From: Pseudomonadota bacterium
GTDB taxonomy: Bacteria; Desulfobacterota; Desulfarculia; Desulfarculales; Desulfarculaceae
Length of the DNA stretch: 33,227 nt
Assembly (NCBI GenBank): GCA_018819925.1
Contig: JAHJPG010000028.1
Coordinates: 1-33,227 of the forward strand
Direction of reading: 5' to 3'
Part shown: positions 915 through 12,579 of the stretch, one piece after another
Layout of the letters: the number at the start of each line of letters is the position of its first letter
How positions within the stretch are numbered: the stretch's first letter is position 1
Notes under the pieces: model-generated
Databases searched by the model: none
Told to the model about the DNA's origin: nothing
What the model saw: the letters and a program-made list of their open reading frames with translations, nothing else
Position numbers and translations under genes: made by a program

Positions 915-1039
915 CCTCTGCTCGACCCGACATCCTCCGTACAGCGTTCCACCAACTCTCGGGTTGATATCCCTGGACCACGCTGGGCAATGAAGGTATT
1001 ATTGAAATATACAATGCAACTTAAGTAAAAGGATTGGTT

Positions 1040-1360
1040 ATGCAAATACTTATAGTCCTGTCCAGCCCGGACCCGGAGATCAAGTGGAACACGGTTAGGC
1101 TTGGCAATTTCCTGCTAAATCAGGACGAGGAAGTGACCATTTTCCTTAACGGCGCGGCCACCGACCTTTATCGGGGCGACAGCGAAAGCTTCCCCATCGC
1201 AGAGCAAGCCAAGCTCTTCGCCCTCAGCGAGGGGTTGCTGGCCGCCTGAGGCAAGTGCATGGTCATCCACGGTGTGGATGAAGATCAGTACATGAAATTG
1301 TCCAACATGAAATTCTTGTACGAGCAAATTCAAAAGGCCGACAAAATTCTAAATTTCTAG
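1040..1360 (+). CDS. DsrE-like selenoprotein (TGA at 1247-1249 read as Sec)
   Basis: Read with the TGA at 1247 as selenocysteine, this frame gives 106 residues ending at TAG 1358-1360. The N-terminus MQILIVLSSPDPEIKWNTVR, the segment VTIFLNGAA and the SEGLLAA-x-GKC stretch match the DsrE/YchN-like fold, in which this last position is normally Cys (CGxC). TGA replaces that Cys at residue 70, giving a U-G-K-C redox motif. The 36 codons after TGA stay coherent (MVIHGVDEDQY..., ...FLYEQIQKADKILNF). A hairpin with 8-bp stem and GGU loop lies 13 nt after the TGA (separate entry). Start ATG 1040 is chosen because AAAAGGA at 1027-1033 lies 6 nt upstream; the TTG at 1034 abuts it. DsrE-like selenoproteins are known from deltaproteobacteria. 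Function is probably sulfur or redox chemistry in the cytosol. The alternative is a nonsense mutation leaving a 69-residue fragment. No sel genes are in the window. Confidence 0.85.
1263..1281 (+). promoter_or_regulatory. Bacterial SECIS-like hairpin
   Basis: TCATCCAC (1263-1270), loop GGT (1271-1273), GTGGATGA (1274-1281): an 8-bp perfect stem inside the coding frame. The loop begins 21 nt after the TGA at 1247-1249. Bacterial SECIS elements are hairpins directly downstream of UGA with a small apical loop having G in its first two positions at roughly this distance; SelB binds the loop. The geometry fits; SelB binding is inferred. Confidence 0.78.
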
Positions 1361-2152: not shown

Positions 2153-2941
2153 TCAACGCCCCCGCAGATATCTCCCCAGAAATTCCCGCACCATCTTCTG
2201 GCTGTCGCTGGTGGCCACGGGGTCGTACTCCAGGCGATGCCCCTGGTAATAGCGGGGGGGCCGGTCGCGGTCCCAGGCATGGGTCGCCTGGGGATACACT
2301 TTGATGGTCACCGGAGGCCCCGCCCGGGTTGCCAGGGCTTGCGCCAATGCTTGGCAGTGCGCCGCCGGGGTCCAGTCGTCCCGGGCTCCGGCCAGGATGA
2401 GCAACGGGGCCCGCAGCCCGGTCATGTGCAGCCAGCACCCCGGATACAGGGCTATGTAGGCTTGAAATGAATCGCCGGTGCGCAGCGTGGCCGGGTCGGC
2501 CGCCCACAAAGCGGCGATCCCTCCATGGGACCAGCCCATCAGCCCGATGCTGTCGGCCCGCACATGGGGCAACCCCGCCAGATAGGCCTTGGCGTCATAG
2601 GCGTCCACGGAGCGGGCCCTGGCCGACAGGGCCCGCTTGTTGCAGACCGAGCCCAAGCCCCGTGGCCCCAAGCTGTCCAGCACGTAGGCCACGTAACCCC
2701 ATTCCGAGAGCAGGCGCGCCCATTGACGATAGTTTTCCTTGATGCCCGAGCATCCGTGCAGCAGCACCACCGCCGGGAAGGGGCCGGGGCCAACCGGCCG
2801 GTACAGTTCTCCCCGCAGACGCACCGATTGGCCCCCATATTGACTGGAGGCGGTAAAGGAGGTTACGGCGGCGCAGCCCGCCAAGACCCCCAAGGCAACG
2901 ATCAGCAGGGCGGCGCCCAGGCTGCGTTTCAGGCCAGGCAT
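2153..2941 (-). CDS. Dienelactone-hydrolase-like alpha/beta hydrolase lipoprotein
   Basis: A 262-residue protein. A lipoprotein signal peptide ends in L-A-G-C (Cys23). The mature part is an alpha/beta hydrolase of the dienelactone hydrolase type: oxyanion segment LLHGCSG near residue 61, nucleophile elbow GWSHGG near 136, acid residue in GARDDWTP near 185, and catalytic His in ATHAWD near 220. The substrate is unknown; the tail HRLEYDPVATSDSQKMVREFLGRYLRGR is usual for this group. The ATG at 2941 lies inside the last codons of recD2 (13-nt overlap) with GGGAAG upstream, so it is translated from the same message as the DNA repair genes. A cell-envelope esterase at the end of a recombination operon has no evident functional link. 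Confidence 0.85.
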   Translation of the reverse strand: MPGLKRSLGAALLIVALGVLAGCAAVTSFTASSQYGGQSVRLRGELYRPVGPGPFPAVVLLHGCSGIKENYRQWARLLSEWGYVAYVLDSLGPRGLGSVCNKRALSARARSVDAYDAKAYLAGLPHVRADSIGLMGWSHGGIAALWAADPATLRTGDSFQAYIALYPGCWLHMTGLRAPLLILAGARDDWTPAAHCQALAQALATRAGPPVTIKVYPQATHAWDRDRPPRYYQGHRLEYDPVATSDSQKMVREFLGRYLRGR

Positions 2942-5085
2942 TTTTTAATCTTCCCGTCCAGATTGGCGTAGCGACGGATGGGCTGGGCGTGCTCCACCGC
3001 CCGCTTGAGGGCGGCGCGCTGGCCCACGATGACCACCAAGCCTTTTCCTCTTGTAACCGCCGTGTAAAGCAGTGGGCGGTTGAGCATGATGTAGTGCTCC
3101 TGGGCCAGGGCGATGACCACCGCCGGGTATTCGCTGCCCTGGCTCTTATGCACGGTGATGGCGTAGGCCAGGGTCAGGTCCTCCAGGTCGGCCGGGGCGT
3201 AGCTCACCGGGCCCTGCTCCATCTCCACCACCAGGCCCTCGTCGTCCTCGCGCAGGGCCAGGCCCAGGTCGCCGTTGAAAACCTCCAGATCGTAGTTGTT
3301 GCGCACCTGCATCACCCGGTCGCCGGGGGCCAGACCCACCCGCCCGGCGGCCCGGGGGTTGAGCGCCTGGCGCAAAAGGGCGTTGAGGTTGGCGCACCCC
3401 AGGTTGCCCTTGTGCATGGGGGCCAACACCTGGATGTCGCGCTCCGGGTCCAGGCCGAAGCGCCGGGGCAGGCGTTGGGTGACAAGCTCGCGGATCACCT
3501 CGGCCGCCCGGGATGGATCTTTCTGCTCGATGAAGAAAAAATCGCCCTCCCCTTCCCGCTCGGGCAGGCGGGGCATCTGGCCGTGCAGGATGCGGTGGGC
3601 GTTGGCCACGATGAGCCCGCGCTCGTCCTGGCGGAAGATCTCGGTGAGTTGGGCCACCTTGGCCGCGCCGCTGTCCATGATCTGGCGGAAGAACAGGCCC
3701 GCCCCCACCGGGGGGAGTTGGTTCGCGTCGCCCACCAAGAGCAGGCGGCTGTTGGCCCCCACCGCCGCGGCCAGGTGGGCCCCCAGCCATTGGTCGATCA
3801 TGGAGGATTCATCCACCACGATGAGCCCGTGCTCCAGGGGCTTGGAGGGCCCGCGCAAGAAGCGGTTCTCCTTGGGGCTGTACTCCAGCAGGCGGTGCAG
3901 GGTAAGGGCCTCCTGGCCGCTGGCCTGGGCTAGGCGCTTGGCCGCCCGTCCGGTGGGCGCGGCCAGGGCCACGGCGTGCCCCATGCGCTGGGCGATGGTG
4001 ATGATGGCCTTTACCAGGGTGGTCTTGCCGGTGCCCGGTCCCCCGGTGAGCACCCCCAGCCCCGCCTCCAGCAGTCCGGTGAGCGCCTGGGCTTGGCTTT
4101 GCGACGGCTTGACCGCCAGTTGTTGCGAGGCCCAGTCCACGGCCTTGGCCGCCCGCTCCGGGGTGAGCAGCCCTTCCTGGCGGGAGATGCGGGCCAGCTC
4201 CTTGGCGGCCAGCATCTCCATGGCGTGCTGGCCGGTGAGGTAAACTACCCTCTGGCCCGAAGGCAGGTCCTCGGCCACGATCTCCTGCTCGCCGTGCAGG
4301 CGGGCGAAGGCCGGACCAAAGAGGGGGCGCTCCACCCGCAGCTCGGCGGCGGTGCGCTCCAGCAACTCTTCGTAGGGCAGGTAAACGTGCCCCTCGTCCC
4401 GGGCGGTGCTCAAAATCCACAGCAGCCCGGCCTGGAGGCGCTCGGGATGATCGGCGGCGATGCCCAGTCGGGCGGCGATGGCGTCGGCGGTGGCGAAGCC
4501 GATGCCCCGCACGTCCGAGGCCAGGCGGTGGGGCTTGTTCTGCACCACTCCCAAGGCCCCGGCCCCGTAGCGGCGATAGATGCGTAGCGCCGTGGTGGCC
4601 GCCACCCCGTGGGATTGCAAAAAGACCATGAGGTCGCGCAGGGCCCCGTGGGCGACCACCGCCTCGGCGATTATCTGGGCCCGCTTGGGCCCCACCCCGG
4701 GAACCTCGGCCAGGCGCTTGGGCTGCTCCAGGATCACCTCCAGGGCGCAGGTGCCCAGGGTCTCAACGATGCGCCCGGCCAGCACCGGGCCTACGCCCTT
4801 GATGAGGCCCGAGGCCAGATAGCGCTCCACCCCCTCGGCGTCCGAGGGCTGCCGGGTGCGGCACTCCTCCACCTCGATCTGGGGGCCGAACTTGGGGTGG
4901 TCCGACTCCTTGCCGCTTACCTCCACCTCCTGGCCCTCGGTGAGCCCAGGCATGCGCCCCACCAGGGTGGTCAGGCCCAGGCGGCCGGAAATTTCCACCT
5001 TGGCCACGGTGTAGCCGTTTTCCGGGTTGGCAAAGGTGATGCGCTTGACCCGGCCCTTGAGTTGCACCTGGCGGGGCTCCTTCAT
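2929..5085 (-). CDS. recD2: RecD2-type 5'-3' DNA helicase (RecD-like ATPase)
   Basis: A 718-residue superfamily 1B helicase. Order: an N-terminal OB-like region (KGRVKRITFANPENGYTV), tandem helix-hairpin-helix motifs (IKGVGPVLAGRIVE and VPGVGPKRAQII, about residues 95-140), the Walker A motif GGPGTGKTT near residue 347, the Walker B region VVDESSMID near 421, motif III GDANQLPPVGAG, and the C-terminal 2B/SH3 and motif VI region (YAITVHKSQGSEYP, LLYTAVTRGK). The long N-terminal region marks RecD2 rather than the RecBCD RecD. The start ATG at 5085 overlaps the addA stop as ATGA and has GGAGGGC upstream; a longer reading to 5124 only adds addA shadow. RecD2 proteins in Deinococcus and Bacillus act in replication-fork and repair processes without RecBC. 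Here it is translationally coupled to AddA. Confidence 0.95.
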   Translation of the reverse strand: MKEPRQVQLKGRVKRITFANPENGYTVAKVEISGRLGLTTLVGRMPGLTEGQEVEVSGKESDHPKFGPQIEVEECRTRQPSDAEGVERYLASGLIKGVGPVLAGRIVETLGTCALEVILEQPKRLAEVPGVGPKRAQIIAEAVVAHGALRDLMVFLQSHGVAATTALRIYRRYGAGALGVVQNKPHRLASDVRGIGFATADAIAARLGIAADHPERLQAGLLWILSTARDEGHVYLPYEELLERTAAELRVERPLFGPAFARLHGEQEIVAEDLPSGQRVVYLTGQHAMEMLAAKELARISRQEGLLTPERAAKAVDWASQQLAVKPSQSQAQALTGLLEAGLGVLTGGPGTGKTTLVKAIITIAQRMGHAVALAAPTGRAAKRLAQASGQEALTLHRLLEYSPKENRFLRGPSKPLEHGLIVVDESSMIDQWLGAHLAAAVGANSRLLLVGDANQLPPVGAGLFFRQIMDSGAAKVAQLTEIFRQDERGLIVANAHRILHGQMPRLPEREGEGDFFFIEQKDPSRAAEVIRELVTQRLPRRFGLDPERDIQVLAPMHKGNLGCANLNALLRQALNPRAAGRVGLAPGDRVMQVRNNYDLEVFNGDLGLALREDDEGLVVEMEQGPVSYAPADLEDLTLAYAITVHKSQGSEYPAVVIALAQEHYIMLNRPLLYTAVTRGKGLVVIVGQRAALKRAVEHAQPIRRYANLDGKIKKCLA

Positions 5086-8000
5086 GGTCCGCCCTCCAGG
5101 CCGCAAAGCGCGGCCACGGGGCAATGGGACGGGTCGCAGCCCGGCCCGGACGGCAAGGTGGCGGGATCGGGCTGGGGCCCCAGGGCCGCGATGCCCTGGG
5201 CGGCGGCGCGCACCCGTCGATCCATTTCCTCCAGATCGGCGGCGGTGAACTCCAGCCAGCTTAATTTGGCCCCTTGGGGTGACAGAAACACCAGGCAGCA
5301 GCGGGGCGCGGGCCCTTGACCTCCCTCTCCCTTGTACAGGGCCAGGGCGTAGAGGGCCATCTGGTCGCGGTAAGGCATGGGGTCGGCCTTGGCGGTGACC
5401 TTGTAGTCAGCCACCAGCCAGCCGGTGTCCAGGCGCGCGGCCAGATCGATCTCGCCGATCATCTCCAAGGCCGGGCCGCCGCCCAGGCCGGGCAGGTGCA
5501 AACAGAAAGGCAGCTCCCGCTCCAACTTCCGGGTCGGGTCCAGCAGACCGGGCAGCTCGGTGTCCCAAAGGCGTGTGGCCAGGGACAGGGCCTGGTCCGC
5601 CAAATCAGGGTCGTGCTCCAGGGAGGCCAGTGCCCTTTCCAGGCCCGCCGGGCCTTGGGCAAAATCAGTGACCTCCATGAACCGATGCACCAGGCTGCCC
5701 AGTTCCACCGCCCGAGGCGAACCGCCGCCGCCCGCCTGGCCAGGCCGTGGCAAAAAGGCGGTGTCCAGGCCCAGGCACTGGGTGAGCACATAGAGCCGGG
5801 GGCAGGCCAGGTAGTTCTCCAGGCCGCTCACCGATTCGCGCACCAGGGACAGCCGCGCGGCGGGACGATCTATGCGCGCCAAAAGGGCCGCCGCCTCTTC
5901 TTTGGCCGCCCCGGCATCACCCGGCAAATCACCCGGCCAGGCATCGGCCAGGGCGCTCGGATCCACTAGGCCATGCAGGGGCAGTTTCGCGGCGTCGTTG
6001 AGGCGCGCCGCCGGGTCGGTGGCCACCAGCTCCCGGGCCCAGTAGTCCCAACCCTTGCTCTTGGTGCCTCCGGGGCTGGTGATCAAGACCAGGCGCTCCT
6101 CGGCCCGGGTGCAGGCCACGTAGAACTTGCGGGCATCCTCGGCTTCCTGGCGGGCCTTGTCTCTGTTTTGCAGACGATCATAGAGGGGCGGCTTGGCCGG
6201 GGCTCCGCTGTCCGGATGGGGCGGGGCCATGACCAACTCGCCGCCTGGACCCAGATCCGGCCCCCGGCTATTGCCGCCGTCCTTGCCGGCCAGGTCGGGC
6301 AGCACCACCACCGGGAACTCCAGGCCCTTGGCCTGATGCACGCTCATGATGCGCACCACCCTGGCTTCCTCGCCCAAAAGCGGGGCCTGGGCATCCTTGG
6401 GCGGATCGGCCACCAAGCCGGCCAGGCCCCGGGCAAAGGCCTCCATGCCTCCGGCCAACACCCCGCCGGGCTGGCGGGCGCTCTCCAGGAGCTTGCGCAG
6501 ATTGGCCACCTTTTGCTCCCCCGCGCCGGTGCCCATGAGCACCGGCAAAAGGTCGCTGTCTTCCAAAAGCAGGGTTAGCAATTCCGCAGGATGGAGCCTG
6601 CGGGCCAAGGGGCCCAGGGTGTCCAGGGCGCGCCTCGCCTTGTCCAGACAAGCCGACTGCCCGTCCTCGCACCAGTCCGGCAAAGGCGAGCCGCTCATTA
6701 GCCCGGCGTGGAGACCTTCGCGCCGGGGCGGCCGGGGATGGGCCAGGGTCAAGAGGCTTTCGTCGCTGAGACCCACCAGGGGCGAACGCAACCAGGCGGC
6801 CAGGGCGATTTCATCCTGGGGGTCCAGGATGGCCCTGAGGGCGTGGGCCAGGTCGCTTATCTCCTGGCGCTCGAAAAAACCCCGGCCGCCCACGGTATAG
6901 AAATCCACCCCTGCCCGGCGAAGGGCTTCTTCGTACACCCCCACCTGGGTGAGCTTGCGCAAAAGCACCGCCACCTGGCCGGGATGGTAGAGGCTCTGGT
7001 CGAAAAGTCCGCGCAAATACGCCGCCAGAGCCCGGGCCTCCACTGCCCGCTGGGCGTCGGCGCTGGGTTTGTCCTCCGTGAGCAAACTCTTGCAATCCAC
7101 CAACTCCACCACCACATCGCCAAGGTCGCCCGGCTTTTTGCCGGAAGGCTCCTGGCGGTCATGGGGGCCGTACTCCACGTAGGCTTGGGGAGCGTGCTCC
7201 TGCCCGGGGCCAGGGGTGAGCACCTGGGCGAACAGGCGGTTGAAAAATTCCACCAGCGCCGGATGGGAGCGCCAATTCTGGCCAAGGGGCTCCACCCGCC
7301 CCGCGCCCTTCTCCAGGCGTTCGGCCAGGTTGACCAACTCGGCCACCTCGGCCCCCCGGAAGGCATAGATGGATTGCTTGCGGTCGCCCACCACCAAAAG
7401 GGCCGGTGGTTCGGCCTGGGGCGCGGGGTCGTGGCCCAGCCCGGCCAGCAGCTCCACCAATTGGTTCTGCACCGGGTTCACGTCCTGGTATTCGTCCACC
7501 AACAGGGCCCGCCAGCGTTGGCGGCACTGAACCAGCACCTCTGGGTGATCGCGCAGCAGGTCCCGGGCCAGGAGTAGCAAGGCGTCGAAACCCAGGGCGG
7601 CCCGCCGGGTCAGCTCGCGGCTCAAGCCGGCTTCCAGCTTGGCGGCCAACTCCAGCAGATCGGCCGCGGCCTTGGCGGCGGCGGGTATGGCCGCCAGGGC
7701 CTCGTACCGCTCCAGGGCGGCAACCAACTCCTGGCGTATGGCGTTGGCCGCATACCAGTTGCCCGCGCAGAGTTCGCGCGTCCGGCCCCAGGCCCAGGCC
7801 TTGGGCGGGTTCTGGGACATGCCCGCGCGCAAACCCTCCCACTCGGTGAGCAAGGCAATTATCTTCTGACCATAGGCCTTGTCGGCCTTCACCTTCTTCT
7901 GCGCGACCAGGTCGCTAAGTCCGGGTAGGAGCTGGTCCATGTCCGACAGCAAGTCGTGGCCCGAAGCCTGGTCAGCGGCGTGGGCCATGGCCGTGGCCTG

Positions 8001-8492
8001 GGCCGCCTGCTCCGGGCTGATGCCCATGGTGGCCAGTTGCCCGTGCAGCCCGCCCAGGCGTTCCCGCAGCCCCCCCTTGCCCGACAGGTTGAAGTGGGCC
8101 AGCAAGCGCCCCAGGGCGGGGTCGCGCTCCTTTAGCCCCTGGCGCAGCGCCTCGGCTATGGTTTCCTGCAACAGGCGGCCGAACTCATCCGCGTCCAGCA
8201 CCCGGAACTCGGGGTCCAGGCCCAGGGCCAGGCCGTATTCCCTAAGCAGGGAGGCGCAAAAGCCGTGGATGGTGTTGATGGGAGCCCAGGCCAACTTGGC
8301 GGCCAACTCGGGGTCCACTTTTTGGCCGATGCGCTGGCGCATCTCGCCGGCCGCCTTTTCGGTGAAGGTGATGGCCACGATCTGGGCGGGCTCCAGGCCG
8401 CGCTCCAGCAGTCCCTGGTAGTGCTCCACCAGGCGGTAAGTCTTGCCCGCTCCGGCCCCGGCCACCAGGCACAGCCTGTCCGGCCGGGTCAT
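5082..8492 (-). CDS. addA: AddA-like helicase-nuclease subunit
   Basis: A 1136-residue UvrD/RecB-type superfamily 1A helicase fused to a PD-(D/E)XK nuclease. Walker A AGAGAGKT at residues 11-18, motif Ia AITFTEKAAGEM, Walker B LLVDEYQDVN near 331, motif IV/V SVHQAKGLEFPVV and motif VI FYVACTRAEERLVL. The C-terminal nuclease has EIDLAARL and VADYKVTA near residue 1029 with RDQMALYALAL. With AddB it would process double-strand breaks to 3' tails for RecA, the RecBCD-equivalent role. Oddly, it also carries four cysteines arranged as in iron-sulfur nucleases: ACPRLY near 897 and C-x5-C-x5-C in the tail (CDPSHCPVAALC). The ATG at 8492 overlaps the addB stop (ATGA) and GAGGGAGA lies upstream. Helicase identity is certain; the AddA name rests on domain order and the AddB partner. 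Confidence 0.93.
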   Translation of the reverse strand: MTRPDRLCLVAGAGAGKTYRLVEHYQGLLERGLEPAQIVAITFTEKAAGEMRQRIGQKVDPELAAKLAWAPINTIHGFCASLLREYGLALGLDPEFRVLDADEFGRLLQETIAEALRQGLKERDPALGRLLAHFNLSGKGGLRERLGGLHGQLATMGISPEQAAQATAMAHAADQASGHDLLSDMDQLLPGLSDLVAQKKVKADKAYGQKIIALLTEWEGLRAGMSQNPPKAWAWGRTRELCAGNWYAANAIRQELVAALERYEALAAIPAAAKAAADLLELAAKLEAGLSRELTRRAALGFDALLLLARDLLRDHPEVLVQCRQRWRALLVDEYQDVNPVQNQLVELLAGLGHDPAPQAEPPALLVVGDRKQSIYAFRGAEVAELVNLAERLEKGAGRVEPLGQNWRSHPALVEFFNRLFAQVLTPGPGQEHAPQAYVEYGPHDRQEPSGKKPGDLGDVVVELVDCKSLLTEDKPSADAQRAVEARALAAYLRGLFDQSLYHPGQVAVLLRKLTQVGVYEEALRRAGVDFYTVGGRGFFERQEISDLAHALRAILDPQDEIALAAWLRSPLVGLSDESLLTLAHPRPPRREGLHAGLMSGSPLPDWCEDGQSACLDKARRALDTLGPLARRLHPAELLTLLLEDSDLLPVLMGTGAGEQKVANLRKLLESARQPGGVLAGGMEAFARGLAGLVADPPKDAQAPLLGEEARVVRIMSVHQAKGLEFPVVVLPDLAGKDGGNSRGPDLGPGGELVMAPPHPDSGAPAKPPLYDRLQNRDKARQEAEDARKFYVACTRAEERLVLITSPGGTKSKGWDYWARELVATDPAARLNDAAKLPLHGLVDPSALADAWPGDLPGDAGAAKEEAAALLARIDRPAARLSLVRESVSGLENYLACPRLYVLTQCLGLDTAFLPRPGQAGGGGSPRAVELGSLVHRFMEVTDFAQGPAGLERALASLEHDPDLADQALSLATRLWDTELPGLLDPTRKLERELPFCLHLPGLGGGPALEMIGEIDLAARLDTGWLVADYKVTAKADPMPYRDQMALYALALYKGEGGQGPAPRCCLVFLSPQGAKLSWLEFTAADLEEMDRRVRAAAQGIAALGPQPDPATLPSGPGCDPSHCPVAALCGLEGGP

Positions 8493-11400
8493 GACTGCTC
8501 TCCCTCAAGAGCGGCGGCGGGGCTTACCCGGGCCCGGCACACCCCGCTCATAGGGCAGTATTCACAAGCTTTCTTTTGGGGCAGCGGCATGAAGTTCCCA
8601 TCCTGGAGGCGGCTCCACAGATCGGCGATGCCGTTGAACAGGTTGGGCTGGCCGACGGCTGCCAGTTCCCGGCGGGTGGCCGTGTCAACGGCCAGGAAGG
8701 GGTCGCCCGGCTGGAATTCCCCCTGGAGCGGCTTTTGCTCTATCTTGCGGGTGGGGGCCACCCGGGCGCTCATGGCGTCATCGGCCTTGCCCCACAGCTC
8801 CCGGGCCGCGGCCAGATACACCGGCATCTGAAAGGCGCTGACTCCCAAATCTTCTTTTTTCAACGGGCCGGTCACTTTGCCAGGCTGGCTGACGTGTTTG
8901 TAGTCCACCACCCTGAGCATGCCCGGGGCTTGATCCAGGCGATCCAGGCGGCCATGCAGAAACAACGGATCTCCCTGCTCCATATCCACCCGCAGTCCCG
9001 GATCGTCCTTACCGAACTCGGCCTCTACCCGGCTTGGCCGCAGAGCAGCCATGTCCGCCATCTCCCGGGCCACCACCTGGCCCAGGGTGCGGGCCAGCAC
9101 TTGGTGACGGGACTCTTGCACCTGGCCGTGCCCCGCCCTGCCCTGCCCGGCCAGATCCTCGCGGGCCTGGTTCAGGCAGCGCCCCAGGCGTTCGGTCTGC
9201 GCGGCCTGGTCCCAGGTGGGATCAAACTCCGAAGGCGCGAAAAACCTGGCCAGGGTTTCATGCACCCAGGAGCCCTCTTCCGAGCGCTCCAAGTCCCAGC
9301 CCGGCTCGCGCGGTTCGCTCAAGCCCAGCATCCTTGCCAGGAACCACCGCATGGGGCAGGCCACGTAGGTTTCCAGGGTGGTGGGGGAGAACTTGCGGCA
9401 AGACGGCTCGGCCAACAGCTCGGCCAGAAACTCCCGGGCCGCGCCTTCCTGGAGCAAGCCGTCGTAGGCGCCGCCTCGGGCCTGACGGTCCTCGGGAGGC
9501 ATGGCCTCCAGACGCAGGCGATGCTCCTCCACCCGGGCCCGAGCGGCCAAGGAGCGCCAGCTATCAGCCACGGCGGGGTCGCGGGCCAGGGCGTGCAGCG
9601 CGGCCTGGGCCAGGCCGTCTTGGGGCGCGGCCGCCAGCCGGGGCCGCAGCAGGTCACGGACCAGGGCGCTCCACAGGCTGCGCCGGTCGCGGCACTTGGC
9701 CACCGCCGGGGTTTCGCCGAACACGCTGCCCGCCGGCGCCTTGAGTTCATCTTCCCGGCCCAAACGCCGGGCAATCTGCTCCAGCAGCAAGCTGGGTGAA
9801 CGGGGCGAGCCGTCCAGGTCCGCCGCGCAGCAGGAGAGCACGGCGCCCTTTTGCGCCGAGCCCAACAACAACAGCAGGCGCAACACCTGGCCGCCGTATT
9901 CCTCTTCCTCGGTTCGCCACACTGAAAGACCGGCTTTGCGGCCCAGGGCCAGGCGCTCTTGGTTGTCCAGCAGGCGCAGGTCCGATGGGCGGGCCGGAAA
10001 CTCCTCCATGTTCAGGCCGCCGGCCAGCACATAGGCGGGGCGCAAACCCTGGGCGTCTTCCAGGCGAAGCACCCGCACGCCCCCCCTGGCCCCCACTCCC
10101 GGCCCGGCATCCTGTTGCTCCAAGGCCTGTTTGAGCAGGGCCAGGTTGCGCCCGGGGCTGTTGGCATGGTTCGCGCCCACCTGCCCGGCCGCCTGCTCCA
10201 GGCCGCTCACCGCCCGCCGGAGTCCTTCCCAAGCCCCAAGGTCCCGGGCCAGGGCCAGGGCGGGCCAGCGGCCCGAACCTAGGCCGGTCATGAGCTCCGA
10301 TGACGGCTCCAGTCCTTGCAGCAGGCGCTGCACGCGAGCGCAATATTCCGCCAGGCTTTGGGCTTGGTCCAGGGGGGCCAACCAGGCAGTAAGCGCTCCG
10401 CAGTCTTGGGCCAACTCCTGCCAGGCCAGGGCCTTGCTCCCCTCCACCCGCTTGGCCGCGTTGTTCAACCACTCGCGCACCGGGGTTTCCCGGGCGTCCA
10501 CGTAAAAAGCCTGGGCCAACAGGCGGGCCGCGTCATGGGGCAAAGGCACCTGTAGATGCCGGGCCAGGGCTTGACCCAGGTAAGGCGAGTCCCACACCCG
10601 GGACAACTCCACCCGGGAGTAGCCCATCTGGGGCAGGGACAGCAGTTCCAAGAACGCCTGCGCCAAGGGGGTGCCAGCCAGGGGTTCGCTGCGGCGGAAG
10701 GAAAGGGGCAGGCCCAGGCGGGCGGCCACGTCCACGGCCATCTGGCCGTAGAGGCCAAGCTCGGGGAAAACCATAAGCAGCTCGTGGGGCGGCACGCCGC
10801 TGTCCACCAGATGCCGGGCCCGCGCCACCAGGGCCTCAACCTCGGCATAGCGCCCCGGGGCGCGCAGCAGCTCTAGGGATTGGCCGCTGGCCGGCGATGC
10901 CTCCTCGCCCTCCCAAGCGCCCAAAGCCAGGGAGGCCAGCGGGCCGCCCTCTTGTTCAAGGTCGGCCCACTCCACCTCGAGGTTGCCGCCATGGGCTTCC
11001 AAGGCCCGGGCCGTGGACTCCAGCAGGTGGAACACCTCCTGACCAGCGCCCACCGGGGGGGTGAGCGCGAAGGACATCCGCACCGGCACCAGCCGCGACA
11101 GGGCGAAAAGCAAGCGCAGCTCCGCCGGGCGCAGCCAAAGGGCCTCCCGCACCTCCAGGGCGTCCCAGGTTTGCAACAGGGGGAAGGCTCCGCCGCCCAG
11201 CAGGTGGGCCTCCACCGCGGCCAACTGGTCAGCCTCGTCGGCCAGGCTCCGCTGGGTCAGTTCCGCCGTATAAGCGGCCAACAGGCCGGCCAGGGCCTTG
11301 CGCCGGGAAGCGCCGTGCCCGGGCAGGCCAGTGACTTCCTCGGGGCCCAGACGCGCCGCCTTGAGCCCCACCAACAGCCGCCACAAGCGATGGGGAAAGC

Positions 11401-11683
11401 GGCGGCCCCGGGAAATACCGCCCAGGACCGCCTGCTCCTGGCCCAGGGACTCCAGCAACTTTTGCACCAGCACCGGCCCGGCCAGCTCGGCCAGGGGTTG
11501 GGATCGGCGGGATTGGGGCGGCAACTGGGACCACAGCAGGGGCAGCAGGGCGTTCTTGCCCTGGAAGGTGTAGTGCCCTCCCCCGCCCAGGAGCAGCCCT
11601 CCCGGGGCCAACATGGCGCTTTGGCTGAGGGCCTGTTCCAAGGCCTGGCCGTTTGGCCAAACCCGGGCCAGGCCCTGGCTCAC
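8489..11683 (-). CDS. addB: AddB-like PD-(D/E)XK nuclease subunit
   Basis: A 1064-residue partner subunit. The N-terminal helicase-like region is divergent: the place where a Walker A would lie (GGGGHYTFQGKN, about residues 30-41) lacks the GK[ST] ending, so ATPase activity is doubtful. The nuclease domain is clear at the C-terminus: TLETYVACPMRWFLA (about residue 774), HGRLDRLD, RVVDYKH, and QMPVYLAAA. Four cysteines, one in CPMRW and three in CEYCPMSGVC near 1041, match the 4Fe-4S site known in AddB. The GTG at 11683 is the start: it overlaps the transglycosylase TGA (GTGA) and has GGGAGG 5 nt upstream. A longer reading to 12010 is only shadow of that gene. The product should form an AddAB-type complex with the next gene's product. 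Confidence 0.88.
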   Translation of the reverse strand: MSQGLARVWPNGQALEQALSQSAMLAPGGLLLGGGGHYTFQGKNALLPLLWSQLPPQSRRSQPLAELAGPVLVQKLLESLGQEQAVLGGISRGRRFPHRLWRLLVGLKAARLGPEEVTGLPGHGASRRKALAGLLAAYTAELTQRSLADEADQLAAVEAHLLGGGAFPLLQTWDALEVREALWLRPAELRLLFALSRLVPVRMSFALTPPVGAGQEVFHLLESTARALEAHGGNLEVEWADLEQEGGPLASLALGAWEGEEASPASGQSLELLRAPGRYAEVEALVARARHLVDSGVPPHELLMVFPELGLYGQMAVDVAARLGLPLSFRRSEPLAGTPLAQAFLELLSLPQMGYSRVELSRVWDSPYLGQALARHLQVPLPHDAARLLAQAFYVDARETPVREWLNNAAKRVEGSKALAWQELAQDCGALTAWLAPLDQAQSLAEYCARVQRLLQGLEPSSELMTGLGSGRWPALALARDLGAWEGLRRAVSGLEQAAGQVGANHANSPGRNLALLKQALEQQDAGPGVGARGGVRVLRLEDAQGLRPAYVLAGGLNMEEFPARPSDLRLLDNQERLALGRKAGLSVWRTEEEEYGGQVLRLLLLLGSAQKGAVLSCCAADLDGSPRSPSLLLEQIARRLGREDELKAPAGSVFGETPAVAKCRDRRSLWSALVRDLLRPRLAAAPQDGLAQAALHALARDPAVADSWRSLAARARVEEHRLRLEAMPPEDRQARGGAYDGLLQEGAAREFLAELLAEPSCRKFSPTTLETYVACPMRWFLARMLGLSEPREPGWDLERSEEGSWVHETLARFFAPSEFDPTWDQAAQTERLGRCLNQAREDLAGQGRAGHGQVQESRHQVLARTLGQVVAREMADMAALRPSRVEAEFGKDDPGLRVDMEQGDPLFLHGRLDRLDQAPGMLRVVDYKHVSQPGKVTGPLKKEDLGVSAFQMPVYLAAARELWGKADDAMSARVAPTRKIEQKPLQGEFQPGDPFLAVDTATRRELAAVGQPNLFNGIADLWSRLQDGNFMPLPQKKACEYCPMSGVCRARVSPAAALEGEQS

Positions 11684-12579
11684 CGGAGCCTCCCGGCCAG
11701 GGCCAACACCGTCTTGGCGTAAGGCTTGGAGTTGTTGTAGGTAAGCACCACCTTGAGTTGGGCCTTGAGGCTCAGGCCGGGCCGCCAGCCGTGGGCCCTG
11801 AGGTAGTTGGCCACGCTGTGGATGGCGTCCTCGGCGTGGGCCAATTCCAGCACCCCGTCGGCGTCTCCGTCCTTGCCCCAATTTAGCACCGAGCTGGGCA
11901 TGAACTGGGCCATACCCAGGGCGCCGGCCAGGGAGCCCTTGTACTCCAGGGGCGAGCGCCCCTCTTTCCCAGCCAGGCGCATCAGCGAGCCCATCTCCCG
12001 GCGGGCCCAAGCGGCACGGCGCTTAAGGCGCTTCTGGGTCTTGGCGCTGTCCAACTCGGCCCTTTGTTTGGCGGGCCAGGCCTGGGCCAAAAGCTTCTGG
12101 GCCTGGGGAGTGTCCAGCACCGCCTGGGAAGCGAGCACGTTGAAAACCGACCAGCGTCCTGTGTAGACCCCCAGGCGGCTTTCCACGCTGAGGATGGCCA
12201 CCACCACCGTGGGGTCCACGCCGCTGTCTTTTTGAGCCCGGGCCAAGACCGCGGCGTGCTCGCGAATGAACTCCTTGCCCGCCTTCACCGTTTTGGGACC
12301 CAAAAACTGGCCGTAGTTGAGGCTGCGCTCCGAGGGCGCCAGCAGCACTGCCATCAACCGGCTCTCGAAGCGCACGCTTTTGTCCCCCAAGAGGGCGTCC
12401 ACCTTGGCCGGGTCCACGCCCTGGCGGATCATTTCGGCCCTGAGTGGCGCAAAAACCGATTGATCTGTCGCCGCCGCCGGCGAGGTGGAGGGCAAAAGCG
12501 CTAGAAGGAGAAAGAACGCCAGGCTCAGGGCGAGCACTTCCCTGCTCCAGCGCCATCTGCTAATCTTGAAGCTCGTCAT
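11680..12579 (-). CDS. MltB-like lytic murein transglycosylase
   Basis: A 299-residue exported protein. Signal peptide MTSFKISRWRWSREVL... ends near PAAA (about residue 29), with no lipobox. The SLT/MltB-type fold follows: VVAILSVESRLGVYTGRW contains the likely catalytic Glu, and later ALGMAQFMPSSVLNWGKDGDADG and the conserved YNNSKPYAKTVLALAGRLR tail. Such enzymes cleave peptidoglycan glycan chains to 1,6-anhydro ends in the periplasm. I chose ATG 12579 over TTG 12603 because it gives an AAGGAAG ribosome site 10 nt upstream and a proper signal peptide. Its start codon overlaps that of a possible divergent start on the other strand. It is the first gene of the addB-addA-recD2 chain and overlaps addB by 4 nt. 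Confidence 0.88.
   Translation of the reverse strand: MTSFKISRWRWSREVLALSLAFFLLLALLPSTSPAAATDQSVFAPLRAEMIRQGVDPAKVDALLGDKSVRFESRLMAVLLAPSERSLNYGQFLGPKTVKAGKEFIREHAAVLARAQKDSGVDPTVVVAILSVESRLGVYTGRWSVFNVLASQAVLDTPQAQKLLAQAWPAKQRAELDSAKTQKRLKRRAAWARREMGSLMRLAGKEGRSPLEYKGSLAGALGMAQFMPSSVLNWGKDGDADGVLELAHAEDAIHSVANYLRAHGWRPGLSLKAQLKVVLTYNNSKPYAKTVLALAGRLR

Follow-up and report, generated by a model that had tools for sequence, protein, structure and literature searches.

Does the gene beginning at position 1040 end at its in-frame TGA, as a gene caller would have it, or is that codon read as selenocysteine (Sec), and what might the longer product do? We addressed this question in the window, that is, the whole 33,227-nt stretch of DNA that was analysed, where the following features bear on the answer.

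974..1002, + strand: TGGACC-17-TATTAT, a weak match to a sigma-70-like promoter (9 of 12 positions agree in a consensus scan, against 0.2 expected matches; a consensus count only)
1028..1033, + strand: AAAGGA, probable ribosome-binding site of the DsrE-like gene, upstream of the ATG (sequence reading)
1040..1360, + strand: complete coding sequence of the predicted DsrE-like selenoprotein, 106 aa with TGA as Sec (translation, Pfam PF02635)
1247..1249, + strand: TGA codon predicted to be read as Sec, codon and residue 70 (TGA or Cys codon in homologues)
1263..1281, + strand: predicted bacterial SECIS hairpin, 8-bp stem with a GGU loop at 1271-1273 (folding energy, covariation)

Read directly from the sequence, the frame runs from ATG 1040 to TAG 1358-1360 with the TGA at 1247-1249 as its single in-frame interruption, and 36 sense codons lie 3′ of the TGA, as the original prediction had it. 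That prediction also held that a standard gene caller would end the gene at 1249, and a mechanical ORF caller indeed returned 1034..1249 (71 aa), terminating at the TGA. With TGA written as U, the translation is MQILIVLSSPDPEIKWNTVRLGNFLLNQDEEVTIFLNGAATDLYRGDSESFPIAEQAKLFALSEGLLAAUGKCMVIHGVDEDQYMKLSNMKFLYEQIQKADKILNF, in which residues 70-73 form the motif U-G-K-C and Cys73 is the second member of the pair. When Cys was substituted for U in the query, residues 1-106 matched the Pfam DsrE family (PF02635; E 4.3e-8, 33.8 bits against a cut-off of 22.7); an NCBIfam search gave no match. The gene is present as a single copy in the genome of its host, a sulfate-reducing bacterium.

We searched that genome (4.0 Mb, 96% complete) by family for the Sec machinery, and the four components to be checked, selA, selB, selC and selD, were all found: SelA at 621 bits, SelB at 389 bits over cut-off, tRNA-SeC (SelC) with the anticodon TCA (UCA), and SelD at 369 bits, the last with its own in-frame TGA in the context ...RAAGUAAKIG. 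The genome also has two full-length formate dehydrogenase alpha genes with one internal TGA each, and together with the interrupted SelD these suggest that the organism decodes TGA as Sec elsewhere too. Within a phylum sample, SelA accompanies the TGA-interrupted homologue in 63/63 genomes, matched by hand from two lists, compared to a background of 355/395; the chance of this is ~0.001 if the genomes are independent, which they are not wholly. SelA was chosen for this comparison and SelB left out because EF-Tu-type proteins cross-match. G299, a genome with the Cys form only, does not appear in the list of SelA-positive genomes.

A scan of a genome collection returned 14 close relatives with 61-84% identity over the whole length; the records carry names such as Desulfarculaceae and Desulfovibrio. 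In all 14 the same column holds TGA, which puts the TGA at 1247-1249 beyond chance, and each of the 21 sequences that make up the gene's own subfamily likewise has TGA there. One locus of this subfamily, L009, comes from the cultured Solidesulfovibrio alcoholivorans DSM 5433. When the close-relative loci were combined with profile searches covering the family and 395 phylum genomes, 84 full-length members were obtained; 72 have TGA and the remaining 12 have Cys (TGC/TGT), one of the latter (L081) assigned by eye. The TGA form spans many families, in genomes that are independent of one another. Alignment of an in-frame UGA with a Cys or Sec residue of homologues, as found here, is one criterion for a bacterial selenoprotein, and when Sec is counted as Cys the residue is one of only four invariant columns in a 74-sequence alignment (E13, R20, G65 and Sec/Cys70). 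Compared with its three closest relatives, the gene has a dN of 0.06-0.13 and a dS of 0.46-1.55 on both sides of the TGA; the 36 codons past it, with dN of 0.06-0.13 and dS of 0.9-1.5, evolve much like the upstream part. The codons 3′ of the TGA are under purifying selection.

An 8-bp hairpin with a GGU loop, starting 13 nt past the TGA, had been described for this locus, and its positions, stem and loop are as claimed. It spans 1263-1281 (TCATCCAC-GGT-GTGGATGA), and its loop is separated from the TGA by 21 nt. A 25-nt stretch folds at -10.5 kcal/mol (z -3.3), a value reached by 1 of 200 dinucleotide shuffles, and a 42-nt stretch compared with synonymous-codon shuffles gave p=0.003. The bSECIS model specifies an upper stem of 4-16 bp, a loop of 3-9 nt with G within its first two positions, a UGA-to-loop distance of 16-37 nt and an MFE of -7.5 or lower (PMC13188914); the hairpin at 1263-1281 lies within all of these bounds (8 bp, GGU, 21 nt, -10.5 kcal/mol). 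Across 38 sequences, compensatory changes occur at seven of the eight stem pairs, and the covariation score is 0.322 compared to 0.114 when shuffled, with 0/500 shuffles as high. In the same sequences 91% of pairing cells pair in the proper register versus 33-54% in slid registers, a control that retains the kinship by which stem-pairing counts are inflated. Mean folding energy is -14.5 kcal/mol in the 72 TGA forms versus -6.9 in 11 Cys forms, and in these 11 folded Cys homologues the hairpin was absent. Scanning 900-1600 against Rfam revealed no SECIS element and one chance match below the gathering score, a null that carries little weight because many bacterial SECIS elements are unlike one another (PMC13188914).

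Five lines of evidence agree on the Sec reading (machinery, TGA conservation, downstream selection, SECIS and SelA co-occurrence), and we conclude that the gene at 1040-1360, known from its sequence, almost certainly encodes a selenoprotein in which the TGA at 1247-1249 is predicted to be read as Sec. Two other explanations were weighed. The TGA could be a sequencing error or a nonsense mutation of TGC/TGT, in which case the gene is a pseudogene and the downstream conservation is residual; decayed copies do exist among the relatives (L014/L056, frameshifted, and L046, truncated with CGA). However, the identical TGA occurs in independent genomes of many families, dN is low past the TGA and the hairpin covaries, and the conservation of the TGA across genera refutes this explanation, whose probability we regard as vanishing. 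The UGA could instead be a true stop, with a functional 69-residue truncated product and incidental read-through, as the short ORF ending at 1249 that gene callers yield would imply. Against this, the 36 downstream codons evolve as protein and supply the remainder of the DsrE fold, modelled at pLDDT 96-99, and the Cys homologues are full-length, so that we judge a true stop to be very improbable. The original prediction of a DsrE-like selenoprotein with UGA-Sec at the redox position is supported, and the three findings that were to count against it were looked for and not made: the Sec machinery is present, all 84 full-length homologues have Sec or Cys at the column, and three other genomes of the genus (G004, G006 and G009) have TGA, none having TGC/TGT, with the gene copy itself undecayed.

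The product is predicted to be a 106-residue cytoplasmic protein with a DsrE/YchN/TusD fold. An AlphaFold2 model built on the 74-sequence alignment has a pLDDT of 98.1, and in it the strand 66-70 ends at residue 70 and is followed by helix 71-77. The best structural match is YchN (1jx7, Z 16.4), followed by a Sulfolobus DsrE/F-like protein (Z 15.9), TusD (2d1p, Z 14.4) and DsrE (2hy5, Z 14.3). Ten structures have Z >= 13.0, namely YchN, proteins of the DsrE/TusD type, small proteins related to these and a designed cage that scores like ST0148; the best structure outside this ten-entry DsrE/TusD-type group has Z 6.8. YchN is also the sole significant sequence match among solved structures (E 2.5e-7 with a wide alignment), PDB sequence searches with the single sequence or a close-family alignment having given chance matches only. 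By profile alignment, the column of Sec70 coincides with the first Cys in YchN's CxxC motif and weakly meets the Cys of a Syntrophomonas DsrE; the placement of the TGA at the reactive-Cys position, as originally predicted, thus holds for YchN by sequence alignment. From the shared fold we infer that Sec70 would take the position of DsrE Cys78, the structural comparison having given ranges only.

We hypothesize the following mechanism. SelB would deliver Sec-tRNA(UCA) to the UGA at 1247-1249, with the hairpin at 1263-1281 as its guide. Sec70 would come to lie where the fourth long strand ends, directly ahead of the helix, in the place of the DsrE-family reactive Cys. There it could accept sulfur as a selenenyl-sulfide, the donor being a persulfide carrier or polysulfide. 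Cys73 could then resolve the selenenyl-sulfide, so that the sulfur would be passed on or sulfide released. Such a sulfur-relay role in handling sulfane sulfur, with a substrate, partner and transfer direction that we infer, has in our estimate about an even chance. It is favored because the single Cys of DsrE and of type II DsrEFH accepts sulfane sulfur from TusA (PMC13293266), Sec stands at that place, and the same genome has dsrA and two TusA-family proteins. None of the neighbouring genes is a sulfur gene, so the neighbourhood lends the relay role no support. The explanation as a whole, a DsrE/YchN-fold selenoprotein with a sulfur-relay role, is in our view quite probable, a grade weighted to the selenoprotein part.

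A Sec-dependent thiol-disulfide or peroxide reductase, with Sec70 and Cys73 as a UxxC redox pair handling electrons and not sulfur, is possible but somewhat doubtful. UxxC is the usual redox motif, the literature places DsrE-like proteins among homologues of thiol-based oxidoreductases (PMC1088965, PMC13188914), and Cys73 is invariant within the gene's own subfamily. On the other hand, the fold is that of the DsrE/TusD sulfur carriers, not thioredoxin, and Cys73 is replaced in 12 of the 72 Sec homologues (Leu in eight, Ser in two, Ala in two), in several clades, while Sec70 stays. Position 73 has undergone at least five changes on the tree, a minimum in which Cys forms are counted too. That Sec is kept where the second Cys has been lost in several lineages points to single-chalcogen sulfur-carrier chemistry; since Cys73 is invariant in the gene's subfamily, carrier and reductase are both possible for the 1040-1360 protein. 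We tentatively suggest that Sec, like the lone Cys of DsrE, may hold sulfane sulfur as a selenenyl-sulfide. With similar reserve, Sec-DsrE proteins might form a broad, partly uncatalogued Desulfobacterota group in which Sec alone would hold the sulfane sulfur and the second Cys of UxxC would be optional. Should Sec-DsrE be a carrier of sulfane sulfur, sulfur trafficking would gain a selenium-dependent step in organisms that rely on sulfur for their energy metabolism.

DsrE-like selenoproteins have been reported from deltaproteobacteria, as the original prediction rightly stated (PMC1088965, PMC1794560): a DsrE-like UxxC selenoprotein was described from the Sargasso Sea in 2005 (PMC1088965) and one from Desulfovibrio vulgaris in 2006 (PMC1794560), the latter in the same phylum as the gene studied here (Deltaproteobacteria/Desulfobacterota). 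Two groups, DsrE 1 and DsrE 2, followed from the GOS set in 2008 (PMC2398784), and a 2026 review lists the DsrE-like UxxC protein as predicted with high confidence and functionally uncharacterised (PMC13188914). WP_014524487.1 is the published representative of the family. That the gene at 1040-1360 belongs to this already catalogued family is well supported: PF02635, UxxC and a SECIS right after the UGA are common to both, and no differing feature was found when the published defining features were compared. The 2026 review gives the family as UxxC only (PMC13188914), whereas some of the relatives found here are without the UxxC Cys. These read UGKL (L059, L061, L062, L065-L068 and L070), UGKS (L042 and L069) or UKKA (L078:3436-3750 and L099:3001-3315); the TGA is kept in all of them and most have the hairpin. 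Such natural variants would allow the necessity of UxxC to be tested and, UKKA included, are natural tests of the single-chalcogen reading. As gene callers truncate or miss the gene, annotation of the family in sulfate reducers is probably incomplete.

Among systems that use Cys, E. coli YchN (1jx7) has CxxC at the position of the gene's UxxC, with Cys for Sec, and YedF has a CGxC DsrE domain, also with Cys for Sec, and an extra SirA-like domain (PMC5322559). The gene product shares its fold with DsrE of DsrEFH and TusD of TusBCD, and in DsrE, TusD and type II DsrEFH the reactive residue accepts sulfane sulfur (PMC13293266). DsrE, TusD and type II DsrEFH (YTD) are Cys-using subunits of hetero-oligomers encoded with partner genes, whereas the gene at 1040-1360 stands alone and has Sec plus Cys.

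No dsrF/dsrH, tusB/tusC or yeeE-tusA-chp was found adjoining the gene. On one side it adjoins genes for a peptidase S58 and a lipoprotein, and on the other a gene for a phosphoribosyltransferase, with a dienelactone hydrolase gene also a neighbour; this order is kept within the genus (L001, L002 and L039) and was not seen outside it. A search for sulfur partners near the loci of the gene's subfamily found none with a distribution wider than the genus or a single family, and neighbours shared no more widely than this imply no partner for the subfamily. In one family (L004, L010 and L053) the gene lies among branched-chain amino acid genes, between ilvN-like (acetolactate synthase small subunit) and ilvC-like (ketol-acid reductoisomerase) genes, as named by sequence reading. 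An ArsR-type regulator gene, so named by sequence reading and not by a Pfam scan, occurs within ~3 kb of many DsrE-like genes of other subfamilies, in Sec and Cys forms alike and sometimes divergently (for example L057, L064, L069, L070, L073, L089, L090, L096, L101, L103 and L107); none was seen near the 21 loci that belong to the subfamily of the gene itself, a rough comparison given that flank lengths differ. L077, L078 and L099 each have Cys and Sec forms of the DsrE-like gene side by side in the same genome region. Further along the window, a row of three genes resembles an AddAB-type repair cluster (2929-12010, - strand).

2929-5124, - strand: RecD2-like helicase
5082-8492, - strand: UvrD-like helicase with PD-(D/E)XK nuclease
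8489-12010, - strand: second PD-(D/E)XK nuclease protein

Within the genus, G007 and G010 gave no match to the DsrE-like Sec gene, and G008 has a remnant only (L046), covering residues 54-106 with CGA at the Sec codon. Absence or decay in some genomes of the genus implies that the gene is not essential. The G008 remnant (L046:1044-1659) is a 3′ portion lying ~100 bases past a tmRNA gene, and tmRNA genes are common integration sites. A plasmid search returned distant haloarchaeal DsrE proteins only. The frameshifted copy at L014:4001-4314 and L056 has more stops past the Sec codon, and at L048 the intact gene adjoins an additional, partial copy covering the C-terminal 36 residues.
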